From assembly GCA_903937385.1 (NCBI GenBank), contig CAIZZF010000008.1, positions 434,001 through 498,000 of the forward strand: a DNA stretch of 64,000 nt, in the 5' to 3' direction. Shown here one piece after another: positions 55,939 to 61,482 of the stretch. The notes under the pieces were generated by a model, which worked only from the letters and a program-made list of their open reading frames with translations, was not told where the DNA came from and searched no databases. Source of the DNA: an uncultured Holophagaceae bacterium (GTDB lineage Bacteria; Acidobacteriota; Holophagae; Holophagales; Holophagaceae). Position numbers and translations under genes: made by a program. Numbering within the stretch: the stretch's first letter is position 1; the number at the start of each line of letters is the position of its first letter.

Positions 55939-57093
55939 TCAGGTCCGAGTTTGGACCCAACCTTCAGCATGACGCCTTGCGGCCCGGTCTGCATCCAGCA
56001 CTTGGGCGAGGGAGGTCAGCGGGGTCACCGGAAGGTGGGCCAGAGTGTCCTGGTTACAGGCCTGGATGTCCCAGAAGCCCAAGCGTCCCTGCAGAAAGGC
56101 TTCGACGGCCACCTCGTTCGCGGCGTTCAGGAGGGCCGGGGCCGTTCCCCCGGCCCGCAGGGCCGAGAAGGCCAGGCCCAGGCAGGGGAACCGCTCCAGG
56201 TCCGGGGGCTCGAAGGTCCAGGTCCGGGCCTGATCCCAGGAATAGGGGGGCACGGGGCCCGGTTGCCGATCGGGATGGAAGAGGCAGTACTGGATGGGCA
56301 GCTTCATGTCGTTGGCGCAGACCTGGAGCTGGTAGCTGCCGTCGTGGAAGCCCACCATGGCGTGGACCTGGCTCTGGGGATGCACGGTGACCGAGAGCTG
56401 ATCGGCACCGAGACCGAAGAGCACGGAGGCTTCGATGACTTCCAGGCCCTTGTTCATGAGGGTGGCGCTGTCGATGGTGATCTTGGGTCCCATCTTCCAG
56501 GTGGGATGGTTGAGGGCCTGCTCCACGGTGGCGGCCTGGATGCGCTCCAGGGACCAGTCCCGGAAGGGCCCGCCGCTGGCGGTGATGCGTACCTCGCGCA
56601 GGGTGGCCCGGTCGCGGCCGTCCAGCAGCTGGTGCAGGGCTGCATGCTCACTGTCCACGGGCAGCAGCTCGCCGCCCCCGGCGAGGGCAGCCTCGTGCAT
56701 GAGCGCGCCGCCCACCACCAGGGACTCCTTGTTGGCGACACAGACCCGCCGTCCGGCTCGCAGCGCGGCTTCGGTACTGGCCAGGCCGGCGCTGCCCACG
56801 ATGGCCGCCACCACGGTGTCCACCCCGGCATCCAGGGCACAGGCCAGGAGGCCCTCGTTCCCCCAGTGCAGCTCAGTCTGGTAGGCGAGGTTGGCGCGCA
56901 GCCACGCCGCGTCTTCCTGGGAGCCCACGGAGACACAGCGGGGCCGGAAGGCCTCGCACTGTTCCTTCAGCAGGTCGCGGTTCCGTCCCGCCGCCAGGGC
57001 CACCACGCCCAGCCGCTCCGGGTGCGCCCGCACGACCTCCAGCGTGGAAGTGCCGATGGAGCCCGTGCTCCCGAGAACCGCGAGGTGGCGCAC
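55939..57093 (-). CDS. dxr: 1-deoxy-D-xylulose 5-phosphate reductoisomerase
   Basis: A 384-aa enzyme of the MEP isoprenoid pathway using NADPH. The N-terminal HLAVLGSTGSIGTSTLEVVR, the NKESLVVGG segment, LPVDSEHAALHQLL with acidic metal ligands, ITASGGPFRDW and HPTWKMGPKITIDSATLMNKGLE segments are characteristic. The GTG start at 57093 abuts the cdsA TGA. It supplies precursors used by UppS, the first gene of the same operon. Confidence 0.97.
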   Translation of the reverse strand: MRHLAVLGSTGSIGTSTLEVVRAHPERLGVVALAAGRNRDLLKEQCEAFRPRCVSVGSQEDAAWLRANLAYQTELHWGNEGLLACALDAGVDTVVAAIVGSAGLASTEAALRAGRRVCVANKESLVVGGALMHEAALAGGGELLPVDSEHAALHQLLDGRDRATLREVRITASGGPFRDWSLERIQAATVEQALNHPTWKMGPKITIDSATLMNKGLEVIEASVLFGLGADQLSVTVHPQSQVHAMVGFHDGSYQLQVCANDMKLPIQYCLFHPDRQPGPVPPYSWDQARTWTFEPPDLERFPCLGLAFSALRAGGTAPALLNAANEVAVEAFLQGRLGFWDIQACNQDTLAHLPVTPLTSLAQVLDADRAARRHAEGWVQTRT

Positions 57094-57981
57094 TCAGTTG
57101 AAGCCGTGGACGAAGTGCACGTAGGCGTAGAGCACAGGCGCGGCGAACACCAGACTGTCCACCCGGTCCAGCATGCCGCCGTGGCCGGGGATGCCGACAC
57201 CACCCACATTCGAGTCCTTCACGCCGGCACTGCGCTTCCAGGTGCTCTCCGCCAGGTCACCCAGCTGCCCGACGGTGCCCAGCAGCAGGCCCAGCGCGAG
57301 GACATCCACCAGGGACCACTCGGAGCAGACCGTGGCCTGCATGAGGAAGGCGCCGAGCAGGTTGCCGCCGAGGTTGCCGAAGGCGCCCTCCCAGCTCTTC
57401 TTGGGGCTCACCCGCGGCGCCAGCTTCCGGTGACCGAAGTAGCTGCCCACGAAGTAGGCGGCGGTGTCGCCGAACCACGTGATGATGATCAGCGCAAGGA
57501 TCAGGCGGCTGCCGGTCTTGGGCAGCGTGCCCTGGAGCATGAACAGCTTCAGCTGGAAACCCAGGCCGAGGCCCATGTAGAGCGCACCGAGCCAGGTGAT
57601 GGCCTGGCTCGGCAGGGCTTCCTCAAGCTTGGGGTCGAAGAAGAGGGCGCCGAGGTGGATCACCAGGATGGCCCCGGCGAGGACGAGCCAGAGGGGCAGT
57701 GGATCCTGGTTTCCCGTGGCCAGGAAGAAGTGAAGCAGCAGGGCCCAGGCGACCAGGACACCGGTGGTCAGGGAGGGGTTGAAGCCCCGGACCCGGGCCA
57801 TGAGGGTCATCTCGCGGACGCCCATGAGGATGGCCCCGGCCATGACCACGAGGAAGGTCCACGGGGCCCAGGGGCGATCCCCGAACCAGAGGAGGCTGAA
57901 GAAGAAGAGGCCGAACACCAGGGCTGTGGCCACCCGGGTGGCCAGGTTGCCGGTATCCATCCTGGGCGTGGTCCGTTCCAT
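57094..57981 (-). CDS. cdsA: Phosphatidate cytidylyltransferase
   Basis: A 295-aa membrane enzyme making CDP-diacylglycerol. About eight helices are seen, with the signature near the C-terminus GIPGHGGMLDRVDSLVFAAP and TWFGDTAAYFVGSYFGHRKL plus RVSPKKSWEGAFGNLGGN. Its ATG shares one base with the uppS stop. A second in-frame ATG eight codons on (57960) is an alternative start. Confidence 0.96.
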   Translation of the reverse strand: MERTTPRMDTGNLATRVATALVFGLFFFSLLWFGDRPWAPWTFLVVMAGAILMGVREMTLMARVRGFNPSLTTGVLVAWALLLHFFLATGNQDPLPLWLVLAGAILVIHLGALFFDPKLEEALPSQAITWLGALYMGLGLGFQLKLFMLQGTLPKTGSRLILALIIITWFGDTAAYFVGSYFGHRKLAPRVSPKKSWEGAFGNLGGNLLGAFLMQATVCSEWSLVDVLALGLLLGTVGQLGDLAESTWKRSAGVKDSNVGGVGIPGHGGMLDRVDSLVFAAPVLYAYVHFVHGFN

Positions 57982-58667
57982 CAGATTCCCCCGAATCGCC
58001 GTTCACGCTGAGCATAGTCCTCGAGGGCTTCCTTCAGCGCCGCGGGACCGAAATCCGGCCACAGAACATCCGTCATGTAGAGCTCAGCATATGCGGATTG
58101 CCAGAGCAGGAAGTTGGAGATGCGGTGCTCCCCGCTGGTGCGGATGAGCAGGTCGACGTCGGGCACCCCGGCCGTCCAGAGGCGCGCCCCCAGGGCGGCC
58201 TCGTCCACCTGGTCGGGGCGGAGGCCGTCTTCCACGCAGCGCCGGGCGGCCTGGGCCAACTCCAGGCGGGAGCCGTAGTTCACGGCCAGGTGGAAGGTCA
58301 TCCCGGTGTTGCCGGCGGTGGCCTCCTCGAGGGTCTTCACGTCTGCCTGGATGCCCCCGGGCATGCCCCGGAGGTCTCCCAGGTGCTGAAAGCGAATGCC
58401 CTTCCGTGCGAGCTGGTGGACGAACATGCGCAGGTACATCCGCAGGAGGGCCATGAGCGCCGCCACCTCGGCGGGGGGGCGCTTCCAGTTCTCGGTGGAG
58501 AAGGCATAGAGGCTCAGGTGCTGGATGCCCTCGTCAGAGGCTGCCTCCAGGATGCGCTCTACCGCCTGGACGCCGGCCTTGTGGCCCTTGATGCGCGCCC
58601 AGCCCCGCTGCGCCGCCCAGCGCCCATTGCCGTCCATGATGATGGCTACGTGGGTCGGTGCCGTCAT
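57981..58667 (-). CDS. uppS: Undecaprenyl diphosphate synthase
   Basis: A 228-aa cis-prenyltransferase producing the C55 lipid carrier for wall polymers. The start MTAPTHVAIIMDGNGRWAAQ holds the catalytic Asp12; STENWKRPPAEV, LAVNYGSR and DLLIRTSGEHRISNFLLWQ are the other conserved regions. No ribosome site precedes the ATG (58667). Instead, a short ORF ends with a 4-base ATGA overlap, and the first 11 codons are themselves copied in tandem upstream. Translation may depend on coupling to those short ORFs. Confidence 0.95.
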   Translation of the reverse strand: MTAPTHVAIIMDGNGRWAAQRGWARIKGHKAGVQAVERILEAASDEGIQHLSLYAFSTENWKRPPAEVAALMALLRMYLRMFVHQLARKGIRFQHLGDLRGMPGGIQADVKTLEEATAGNTGMTFHLAVNYGSRLELAQAARRCVEDGLRPDQVDEAALGARLWTAGVPDVDLLIRTSGEHRISNFLLWQSAYAELYMTDVLWPDFGPAALKEALEDYAQRERRFGGI

Positions 58668-58774
58668 CGAGTGCCCAGGGGGGAGAGGAAGGCGGACTGA
58701 GCCGCGTGGCCGGCCTCGCGTATGCCTGGAGGGCATACCGAGATGATGATGGCTACGTGTGTCGGTGCCGTCAT
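58664..58774 (-). CDS. Short ORF immediately upstream of uppS (repeat unit)
   Basis: A 36-codon frame starting with the uppS-like MTAPTHVAII and continuing through ISVCPPGIREAGHAA to LSPLGTR. Its TGA (58664-58666) overlaps the uppS ATG as ATGA. It has no ribosome site of its own. It is best seen as a product of tandem duplication that may act as a leader ORF; whether a peptide is made is unknown. Confidence 0.35.
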   Translation of the reverse strand: MTAPTHVAIIISVCPPGIREAGHAAQSAFLSPLGTR

Positions 58775-58881
58775 CGCGTGCCCAGGGGGGAGAGGGAGGC
58801 GGGCTGAGCCGCGTGGCCGGCCTCGCGTATGCTCGGAGAGCATACCGAGAAGATGATTGCGACGTGGGTCGGTGCCGTCAT
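58771..58881 (-). CDS. Second short ORF in the uppS leader (repeat unit)
   Basis: A 36-codon frame, MTAPTHVAIIFSVCSPSIRE then AGHAAQPASLSPLGTR, nearly the same as the next short ORF. Its TGA overlaps that ORF's ATG by four bases. The reading frame is intact despite several base differences between units, but the sample is too small to prove selection for coding. Confidence 0.3.
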   Translation of the reverse strand: MTAPTHVAIIFSVCSPSIREAGHAAQPASLSPLGTR

Positions 58882-58982
58882 CGTATGCCTGAGGGAGAAG
58901 GGGGCCGAGCCGCGTGGCCAGCCTCGCGGTGGCCTCGGGAGCCCGCCAGAGGGATAAGCCTGGAGCGGATCTGAACGGTCAT
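58878..58982 (-). CDS. First short ORF in the uppS leader (degenerate unit)
   Basis: A 34-codon frame beginning MTVQIRSRLI and containing HREAGHAARP, which matches REAGHAA of the other two. Its TGA overlaps the next ATG by four bases. Its ATG at 58982 lies in a similar context (CGATGAC), suggesting a worn fourth copy. It would be the entry point for ribosomes if the chain is translated; no clear ribosome site is visible. Confidence 0.25.
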   Translation of the reverse strand: MTVQIRSRLIPLAGSRGHREAGHAARPPSPSGIR

Positions 58983-59115
58983 CGCGCACTGAAAATGTCG
59001 ACAAAATTCCAAAAGATAATGCTAACACGTGGGTTGCCGTTGAGAGGGGAGAGGCTGGTCTCCCCCGCGACCCATCATGGTAGGCTTTAGCCCATCCTTT
59101 TTCCTGGCAAAACAC

Positions 59116-61482
59116 ATGGTTCAGTTCAATACGCGAGGCAATGAGATTCTGCTCAAACTGGTCTATTACGGGCCGGGTCTCAGCGGTAAGACCACCAACC
59201 TGCAGTCCCTGCACGCCATGTGCTCCGACGCGCAGCGGGGGGAGATGTTCTCTGTCAACACCCAGGAAGACCGCACGCTCTTCTTCGACCTGCTGCCCAT
59301 CAACCTCGGCTACATCTACGGCAATGCCATTCACCTCCAGATCTACACCGTGCCTGGCCAGGTGCAGTACGACGCGAGCCGGCGGGTGGTCCTGGGGGGT
59401 GCGGACGGGGTCGTGTTCGTGGCGGATTCCTGCGAGTCCAAGATGCAGGACAACGTGGACTCGCTCTCGAATCTGTATCACAACCTCAATGCCAATCGGC
59501 TGAACATCAAGCAGATCCCCTTTGTCATCCAGTACAACAAGCGAGACCTTCCGGACGCCATGGCCGTGGGGGTCATGAACCGCCGACTGAACTTCCGTAG
59601 CGTGCCCTACTTCGAATCCGTCGCCAACCGCGGCACCGGCGTGCTGGACACCTTCCTCTCCATCACCCGGGAGACCGTCGGCTACACGTTCAAGAAGTAC
59701 CACCTCGACAAGAAGATCAAGGACTTCGATGAGATGTTGAACCTCATCGACGCCAACGTCCGGACGAGCATGCGGGAGCTGCCGCCGCCTGAGCCGGGAC
59801 CCTCGGTGTCCGCCATCGAGACGACAGTACTGAGACACAGCAACGTGAGCGTGGCCGACCTCCTGCCAGGCAAGGTCGCGGATGCGCACGAGCTGCTGGA
59901 AGACGCCCTCAAGTCCAACATGGAGACCGCCCGCCTCTACTCTGAGCTCAAGCAGATGAAGGAGGCTCTGGAGAAGAAGAACGAGGAACTGAGCGCGCTC
60001 TACTCCCAGTTGGATCGGGCCAACCAGGACAACCTCAAGACCCGCCGCTACCTCGAAGGGCTGGTGCAGAACATCGGGGAAGCGGTCATCTCCTACTCGC
60101 CTGACGGCAAGATCCTCACCTGGAACATGGCGGCAGAGCGCATCTTCGGGTATTCACGGCCCGAGATCGTGGGCAGGAGCATGGCCCAGCTGACGCCGGA
60201 TCACCTGCTTGGGGAGCTGGAGCAGGTGGCCCAGCAGGTGGCCCGGGGTCAGGTCATCCGGGGGGTGGTCACGACCCGGATGCGCAAGGGGGGCATCCCC
60301 TTCCCGGCCAACATCACCTATGCCCCCGTCCGGGGCAGCGACGACCGGGTGCTGGCCTTTTCCGCCCTGGTCCGGGACACGAGTGAGCAGAAGGATCTCC
60401 GGGAGCGGCTTGACCATTCCCAGAAGCACGAGGCGCTGGGTCGGCTGGTGCCCACCCTCTTTCATGAGGCTGCCAACCGCCTGACCCCCGTCTTCCTGGA
60501 AGCGCAAAGGCTGGCTGAAGCCGGCAAGGATTCTGAGCCGGTCGACCGCCTGGTGAAGGCTGTGAGTTCCATCCAGGACCTGCTGCTTCCCCTGCAGACC
60601 CTCCTCAACCCGCCCGCGCCCGTGCGGACGCCCGTCCAGCTCAATGAGCTTGTGGCGGAGGTCGCGGCGCTGGTTCATCCCAAGGCGCAGGAGGTGGGTG
60701 TTTCGGTCGAGTTGAACCTGGACCCGAGCCTGCCGGTGTCCGACCTGGACGCGGGACTCCTGCGGCAGGCTCTCACCAGCCTGCTCCAGAGCAGCCTCCA
60801 GTCCCTGACCCTCCGCCCCGTCAAGCAGCTGCGAGTGAGCACCCGGTTCTCCGGGGACAGCCTCCACGTGGTGGTGCAGGACAGTGGCCCACTGATTCCT
60901 GAAGGCCGACAGGCCGAGCTGTTTGATGCGGCCGAGATCACCAGCACCGAGGGCATGGGGCTTCCCGTCGCCGATACCCTCTGTCGGCAGCACGGTGGCC
61001 GCCTGAGCGTGCAGAGCCAGGAAGGGTCGGGCAACGCCTTCCTGATGGAAATCCCGCATGGGGTTGCCGCGCCCCGGGCGGTCTCGCCCAGTGGTGGGCT
61101 CCAGGGCAAGCGGGTCCTGGTGGTGGATGACGAATCCTTCCTCCTGGAATGCCTTGTGGACGCCCTCAGCGCCTGGGGTGTGGACGTCGCCTCCAGCACC
61201 CGGGGCGACGAAGCCATCGAGCAGCTTCAGCAGGGGACCTTCGACTTGATCGTCTCTGACATCCGCATGCCAGGGTTGTCAGGCGTCGAGCTGTATGACT
61301 GGCTGAAGGTCGAGCGGCCCGACATGACTCGGCGGATCCTCTACACGACGGGGGATTCCTTCGATACCAAGACGCGGGAGTTCCTGGAAACGAACCAGGT
61401 GCCCTACCTGGGTAAGCCCTTCGATCTAAAGCAACTCAAGCAAAGTCTTGAGCTCCTCCTAGGGAGTCCGGCGGAGGCGTGA
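59116..61482 (+). CDS. MglA-type GTPase fused to coiled coil, PAS, degenerate kinase and receiver domains
   Basis: A 788-aa multidomain protein. Residues 1-195 are an MglA-like Ras GTPase: P-loop GPGLSGKTT (Lys25), the MglA-specific TVPG at 78-81 in place of DxxG, and NKRD at 141-144. Then come a coiled coil (about 265-310), a PAS domain (about 312-422), a HisKA-like helix with His450 in LFHEAANRL, an HATPase-like region in which the N box is not recognisable and the G1 motif reads DSGPLIP, and a C-terminal receiver with phospho-acceptor Asp715 (DLIVSDIRMPG). MglA sets cell polarity in Myxococcus. ATG 59116 fits MglA starts; 59077 is an in-frame alternative. No mglB adjoins. Confidence 0.9.
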   Translation: MVQFNTRGNEILLKLVYYGPGLSGKTTNLQSLHAMCSDAQRGEMFSVNTQEDRTLFFDLLPINLGYIYGNAIHLQIYTVPGQVQYDASRRVVLGGADGVVFVADSCESKMQDNVDSLSNLYHNLNANRLNIKQIPFVIQYNKRDLPDAMAVGVMNRRLNFRSVPYFESVANRGTGVLDTFLSITRETVGYTFKKYHLDKKIKDFDEMLNLIDANVRTSMRELPPPEPGPSVSAIETTVLRHSNVSVADLLPGKVADAHELLEDALKSNMETARLYSELKQMKEALEKKNEELSALYSQLDRANQDNLKTRRYLEGLVQNIGEAVISYSPDGKILTWNMAAERIFGYSRPEIVGRSMAQLTPDHLLGELEQVAQQVARGQVIRGVVTTRMRKGGIPFPANITYAPVRGSDDRVLAFSALVRDTSEQKDLRERLDHSQKHEALGRLVPTLFHEAANRLTPVFLEAQRLAEAGKDSEPVDRLVKAVSSIQDLLLPLQTLLNPPAPVRTPVQLNELVAEVAALVHPKAQEVGVSVELNLDPSLPVSDLDAGLLRQALTSLLQSSLQSLTLRPVKQLRVSTRFSGDSLHVVVQDSGPLIPEGRQAELFDAAEITSTEGMGLPVADTLCRQHGGRLSVQSQEGSGNAFLMEIPHGVAAPRAVSPSGGLQGKRVLVVDDESFLLECLVDALSAWGVDVASSTRGDEAIEQLQQGTFDLIVSDIRMPGLSGVELYDWLKVERPDMTRRILYTTGDSFDTKTREFLETNQVPYLGKPFDLKQLKQSLELLLGSPAEA

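Follow-up and report, generated by a model that had tools for sequence, protein, structure and literature searches.

The uppS gene of an uncultured Holophagaceae bacterium was found to be preceded by a tandem array in which copies of the gene's own start open short reading frames, each ending beside the next start and the last of them on the uppS start codon. The reading we favor, with a probability of roughly two in three, is that this leader is one duplicative insertion site of a family-wide palindrome, that its reading frames would work as a coupled chain, and that the array was probably expanded and reduced later by recombination.

The array upstream of uppS and its hairpin

The window is the whole stretch of 64,000 nucleotides that was analyzed (contig CAIZZF010000008.1, positions 434,001 to 498,000 of the forward strand). 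In it, the whole array lies on the minus strand and consists, upstream of uppS, of a pair of direct repeats of 107 bp each plus a worn copy of 101 bp. Tandem Repeats Finder placed the repeat at 58636-58928, with a period of 107, 2.8 copies and 87% matches. The features of the region are as follows.

55939..57093, minus strand: dxr, next after cdsA in the uppS gene run (TIGR00243, 417 bits)
57094..57981, minus strand: cdsA-like phosphatidate cytidylyltransferase gene, 1-nt overlap with the uppS stop (98.1 bits, below the model cut-off of 385)
57981..58667, minus strand: uppS, undecaprenyl diphosphate synthase, 228 aa, start MTAPTHVAIIMDGNGRWA (TIGR00055, 269 bits, cut-off 109.55; PF01255, 270.8 bits)
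58664..58774, minus strand: short ORF 3, 36 codons, TGA overlapping the uppS ATG (ATGA)
58771..58881, minus strand: short ORF 2, 36 codons, TGA overlapping the following ATG (ATGA)
58878..58982, minus strand: short ORF 1, 34 codons, worn copy, TGA overlapping the following ATG
58668..58774, minus strand: uppS-proximal unit, 107 bp, with uppS-start copy (about 58742-58774), hairpin and linker
58775..58881, minus strand: middle unit, 107 bp, with uppS-start copy (about 58849-58881), hairpin and linker
58882..58982, minus strand: outermost unit, worn, 101 bp, hairpin degenerate
58714..58743, minus strand: palindrome (hairpin with bulged G) in the uppS-proximal unit (model R1, 67.7 bits, E 6.8e-18; fold −16.7 kcal/mol, z −2.45)
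58821..58850, minus strand: palindrome in the middle unit (model R1, 65.8 bits, E 2.9e-17; fold −17.3 kcal/mol, z −2.72)
59019..59027, minus strand: TGTTAGCAT, candidate extended −10 for the uppS leader, proposed from its conservation
59116..61482, plus strand: divergent PAS sensor histidine kinase gene with receiver domain (ORF and kinase, PAS and receiver profiles; neighbor in congeners)

The start of the divergent kinase gene forms the far boundary of the uppS leader; in our reading, the N-terminal part of this kinase may be small GTPase-like (MglA-like). An earlier sequence-only reading had described a 107-bp repeat of the uppS start with ATGs at 58667, 58774 and 58881 and a worn copy at 58982, and frames of 34-36 codons ending three times in a row in a four-base ATGA overlap, and the coordinates bear out both statements. 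The ATGs at 58982, 58881 and 58774 open frames of 34, 36 and 36 codons, respectively, the last of which runs into the uppS ATG at 58667. The stops (58880-58878, 58773-58771 and 58666-58664) are TGA triplets that each begin one base inside the following ATG. Over the 28 bases past the start codon, the start copies were identical to uppS at 25/28 and 27/28 positions. In the copy at 58982 the start is worn and the downstream half still matches the other units; a worn outermost unit recurs at the equal position in the sister species L003, L004 and L005.

No Shine-Dalgarno (SD) sequence was present at any of the four starts (best anti-SD energies of +0.4, −1.9, −2.1 and −2.1 kcal/mol compared to −3.3 kcal/mol at random positions), in agreement with the earlier statement that uppS has no visible ribosome site. 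A scan for sigma-70 consensus promoters and terminators found none, and an Rfam search of positions 58500-59200 of the window at up to E = 1 matched no family. In the fold of this genome, the uppS start (58639-58667, minus strand) can fold back on itself, pairing ATGA with TCAT and GGC with GCC, and such a fold could mask the start codon against direct initiation.

Every good unit contains a copy of the uppS start, a hairpin immediately after it and then a linker of approximately 40 nt. The hairpin is approximately 30 nt long (CTCGGTATSSSCTNNGSSSATACGCGAGAC) and has the form TCTCG-GTATSSSC-loop-GSSSATAC-(G)-CGAGR with one bulged G. Aligned hairpins start with TCTCGG and end with CGAGR, and neither a GTAG nor a CGTC tag was present at their foot. 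Among 39 distinct sequences, 95.9% of the cells of the 13 base pairs were paired and 8 pairs had changed on both sides, and 0 of 500 shuffles matched the observed covariation measures. The hairpin is kept with compensatory changes across eight genera, and part of this covariation could reflect palindrome-correcting template switches instead of selection. A conserved leader peptide was rejected as a candidate, since the peptide residues encoded by the hairpin vary while RNA pairing is maintained. The linker differs between species, yet it is homogenized among adjacent units of one array.

Copy number and stop-start coupling among relatives

Beyond this genome, uppS was located in 42 genomes of the genus, compared as single genomes, one per species. 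One was truncated at the start, and the leader was read in the remaining 41. The copy-number variation anticipated by the sequence-only reading was found, with 0, 1, 2 or 3 units in the leaders of these 41 congeners. Accordingly spaced, the distance from uppS to the divergent gene is quantized at about 127, 233, 340 and 446 bp for 0, 1, 2 and 3 units, respectively. At least 19 copy-number changes were counted on the uppS tree (41 species; first 36 nt of uppS left out). This genome has three units compared to one in its nearest relative, L003, whose UppS is 99% identical, and close species differ by one or two units (L002, three, and L003, one; L016, one, and L018, none). Outer units were frequently worn. 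The leader of L036 is just a 38-nt stub ending in ATGA, and that of L004 (genome G014) has a stopless 105-bp unit fused in frame, which would extend the UppS N-terminus by about 35 residues.

Six congeners have no units and carry an ordinary SD at uppS. Relatives of this kind had been named beforehand as evidence for a neutral duplication; these six fit the description, but appear to have lost the units or never to have gained them. The motif TG(C/T)TAGCAT was conserved ahead of the outermost copy in congeners at any unit number, and in most of them GAGG was present ahead of the outermost start, at a position that is also constant at any unit number. TG(C/T)TAGCAT is possibly promoter-like, and the position of the two elements would fit the outermost copy or, in leaders without units, uppS. 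Ahead of uppS, units were also found in seven further genera of this family (g3, g4, g5, g6, g7, g8 and g9), with ATG, GTG or TTG as start codons, and no uppS units were found in genera g2, g10 and g11 of the same family. Because relatives in both genus and family also have units, the uppS array is not a private duplication.

The layout had been proposed earlier as a termination-reinitiation chain on the strength of three successive overlaps. In that one genome, the ATGA overlaps count as one chance event, of probability about 1 in 3, and not as three, because any ATGA-starting unit with a length of 2 mod 3 overlaps automatically, and the evidence against chance overlap comes from the relatives. 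Across them, a stop lay between −12 and +5 relative to the next start in 70 of 76 distinct uppS units despite changes in length, sequence and start codon, compared to 0 and 15 units in the other two reading frames, these being counts from units related by descent that are not phylogenetically independent, with frame +1 closed trivially by the TGA inside ATGA. Units of 101, 104, 107 and 110 bp all end beside the next start, and the solutions found across units are ATGA, GTGA or TTGA overlaps, TAGTG (in L047 and L048) and an in-frame TAG at −10. Units of 106 bp cannot use ATGA, and an in-frame TAG at −10 was present in 12 of 15 such units; among units of 107 bp, 6 of 47 have TAG there but out of frame (p = 2.7e-6, uncorrected for kinship). 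The exceptions to the stop rule are L042 (−22), L044 (−37), the first unit of L047 (−17), L060 (−36) and the L004 unit that runs in frame into uppS.

In the genus of the window, the median SD values were −5.4 at first starts and −5.3 at zero-unit uppS, and −3.4 at uppS behind units compared to −3.3 at random positions. A weak SD behind units together with a strong SD at the first start is what delivery of ribosomes through the chain predicts; counter to this, the outermost start of this genome (58982) is also without SD. Other genera keep an SD-like site at uppS behind units (median −6.3), and their inner starts range from −6.3 to −8.6. Direct initiation at inner starts is possible in those genera, and because SD-like sites are kept there, reinitiation need not be the sole source of uppS translation. 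Taken at the level of sequence, termination-reinitiation into uppS is well supported by the comparison of relatives, and the stop-start coupling looks to be under selection.

Dispersal of the palindrome and arrays at other genes

A pattern search allowing up to 3 mismatches matched the uppS units only, and a repeat private to uppS was rejected when a covariance model revealed its dispersal. This model, R1, describes the hairpin and was trained on the uppS units, and its E-values are rough. R1 matched in 70 of 77 family genomes, with up to 40 copies per genome; outside the family, there were scattered weak matches at most. This genome gave 22 matches with E no higher than 1, and uppS and polA had the strongest of them. 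Most of the other copies are single and intergenic, often lie just 3' of a gene and carry a CAAACAG-like tail; flanking duplications were absent from the single intergenic palindromes of this genome. The single palindromes L167 and L170-L173 of this genome lie within longer intergenic inverted repeats (CCACGAAGACCACGAAG...CTTCGTGGTCTTC), which are perhaps a second repeat family. G073 (genus g11), a genome without uppS units, gave 31 weak R1 matches (best E 1.3e-7), possibly from a related but different palindrome family.

Arrays with a near-constant period of 103-108 bp were found at the starts of polA, manC (a mannose-1-phosphate guanylyltransferase-like gene, NTP_transferase in Pfam), a DUF502 gene and a prepilin-like gene, and antisense arrays at the 3' end of rpsT (S20) and a few other genes. 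The simple tandem slip of the uppS start that the sequence-only reading had assumed does not hold, and plain tandem slippage was rejected as a full account: the good units also hold a covarying palindrome that is absent from uppS and dispersed in genomes, and similar arrays occur at polA, manC, DUF502 and rpsT. The polA array has 0 to 3 units among congeners. In this genome (G000:C15:27068-27449; L164, L236), the native polA start is followed by two 103-bp units containing the palindrome and then by the real start, which is preceded by a GGAGGTG ribosome site. Units at three of these genes likewise stop beside the next start, at +5 in polA (103 bp), +1 in DUF502 (104 bp) and +1 or −2 in manC. 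uppS, polA, manC and DUF502 all read intact from the last start, the exception being uppS of L004. An array of shorter period was seen at L200 (G001:C7 98242-98626), where six antisense palindromes lie behind an adenosine deaminase gene at a spacing of 68-71 bp.

At the clearest rpsT sites, a palindrome of approximately 30 nt lies between direct copies of approximately 70-75 bp of the target. In the filled rpsT site of G008, a 30-nt palindrome (CTCGG..CGAGAC) comes after TTCACCTT, and about 72 nt of target sequence then appear a second time; the empty site in the relative G018 has neither palindrome nor target copy. At other rpsT sites, the target copies span 64-78 nt, the best 70-75, and L314 keeps just 23 nt. 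The palindrome is inserted behind a short stretch rich in pyrimidines, for example TTCAT or TTCACTTT. In the duplicates at uppS, polA and DUF502, likeness to the partner copy persists in the coding part only, and the linker is unlike the native upstream sequence; because the linkers there do not match, a duplication of approximately 72 bp at these three genes is proposed by analogy with rpsT.

Origin of the arrays and likeness to known systems

In the reading we favor, the palindrome would end up flanked by directly repeated target stretches of about 70-75 bp. In the resulting order A-palindrome-A-B, a gene would need to span the final A-B junction to survive; arrays are expected at 5' ends (palindrome sense) and at 3' ends (antisense), as observed, because elsewhere the gene would not stay whole. 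At uppS, the duplicated stretch would be the end of the leader plus the first approximately 33 nt of the gene, and the linker would be the decayed half of the same duplication. The native promoter and SD would now serve the outermost copy. Ribosomes would cross the palindrome while translating a 34-36-codon ORF, terminate on the next start or slightly short of it and reinitiate, and one to three such rounds would bring them to uppS. The stop-start geometry would be kept by selection for translation of the essential uppS, and copy number would be gained or lost via recombination or slippage between direct repeats. Tentatively, and with clearly less than an even chance, the palindrome may represent a minimal class of mobile DNA, that is, an enzyme-less element of approximately 30 nt that makes a target duplication of approximately 70-75 bp and settles in the ends of essential genes, where the number of mini-ORFs would set output.

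Three other explanations were weighed against this reading. If the array were neutral debris left over from a duplication, translation of uppS would begin independently at the gene's own start codon, and the short ORFs would be irrelevant. The six congeners that manage without units, the frequent changes in copy number and the worn outer units agree with this, and an ATGA-starting unit of length 2 mod 3 overlaps at no cost. It is nevertheless unlikely, given that the frame is conserved over several unit lengths and stop solutions and also in the polA, manC and DUF502 arrays, that in the window genus uppS behind units has an SD no better than random sites, and that compensatory changes keep the palindrome across eight genera. 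Conserved hairpins within translated ORFs and recurrent copy-number change, with the close species L002/L003 and L016/L018 one or two units apart, would also suit a tuned regulatory leader, in which units and hairpins would set or sense UppS output in an attenuator-like manner and the copy-number variation would be adaptive. Yet a dispersed repeat better explains why the identical palindrome also occurs at 3' ends and at genes of unrelated function, and with no Rfam match for the leader, some species lacking units, and residues of the hairpin peptide changing while pairing persists, such tuning appears distinctly improbable.

A REP-like or IS200/IS605-like single-strand element is another candidate origin; a Y1 (HUH) transposase would have moved it, picking up the gene start and inserting it again as a tandem copy. 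The imperfect hairpin is of REP size and dispersed intergenically, insertion follows a short pyrimidine-rich motif (TTCAT or TTCACTTT), and REPs reiterated in tandem with flanking DNA are on record (PMC3733652). The Y1 transposase profile PF01797, though, had matches in 13 of the 77 genomes of the family and is missing from this genome (G000), the 30 loci fetched around Y1 genes gave one weak palindrome match (17.3 bits), and the GTAG tag was not seen, which leaves this origin very unlikely. Identical multi-copy Y1 (PF01797) transposase genes are present in G031, G033 and G070, where no link to the palindrome was seen.

REPs are imperfect palindromes of 20-40 bp, mainly intergenic, family- or strain-specific and sometimes tandemly reiterated with flanking segments (PMC3733652). 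The repeat described here resembles REP/REPIN and RAYT systems in being an imperfect palindrome of approximately 30 nt in many dispersed copies, but it differs in having no cognate RAYT gene (absent from G000 and from 64 of 77 genomes) and no GTAG tag, in its near-constant target copies of approximately 70-75 bp, and in sitting in 5' coding ends, where it builds chained ORFs. Rickettsia palindromic elements are described, in an account reporting Ogata et al. 2000, as open in frame and inserted within conserved coding sequences (PMC2229807). Those elements are 105-146 bp and fused in frame in the protein, whereas here a 30-nt palindrome lies in a separate short ORF and the duplicated gene end leaves the protein intact, with the exception of L004, where the unit is in frame with uppS. 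MITE-like small repeats (Correia/NEMIS, RUP, ERIC, RU) are non-autonomous, form stem-loops and mostly have target-site duplications (PMC2229807). Unlike in these, the element here is the palindrome itself, without separate terminal inverted repeats or TA ends, and the clearest target copies, at rpsT, are 70-75 nt, with none at single intergenic copies in this genome. To our knowledge, copies of about 70-75 bp far exceed those of MITE-like small repeats, and we know of no transposition mechanism that they match.

On the side of translation, coupling by termination-reinitiation was demonstrated for 13 of 14 tested gene pairs in Haloferax and E. coli (PMC6728339), and leader ORFs ending shortly before gene starts are enriched in several phyla, Acidobacteria among them, and are most frequent at a distance of 10-11 bp (PMC4833913). 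The ATGA, GTGA and TAGTG overlaps at uppS units are like those of overlapping genes, but the upstream partners here are up to three copies of the start of the downstream gene and not real genes. Similarly, the TAG of the 106-bp units begins 10 nt ahead of the next start, as in leader genes that raise expression by reinitiation, but those are single leader ORFs without palindrome or start duplication. The earlier claim that no system of this kind has been described holds for the combination and not for termination-reinitiation itself, which is well known (PMC6728339, PMC4833913): in the open-access literature, we found no description of a tiny palindrome between long gene-end copies that makes a chain of coupled mini-ORFs, and no paper on repeats of such kind in Geothrix or Holophaga.

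The arrays suggest a route by which a small repeat may enter essential genes, in that it would bring along a copy of the gene end while reinitiation would rescue translation. Leaders with 0, 1, 2 or 3 units and several stop-start geometries form a natural series in dozens of species, in which the cost and reach of reinitiation could be measured. For annotation, the units account for dubious start sites upstream of uppS and polA in the family. The repeats of this family point to a small, probably mobile type of DNA repeat that has not yet been described.
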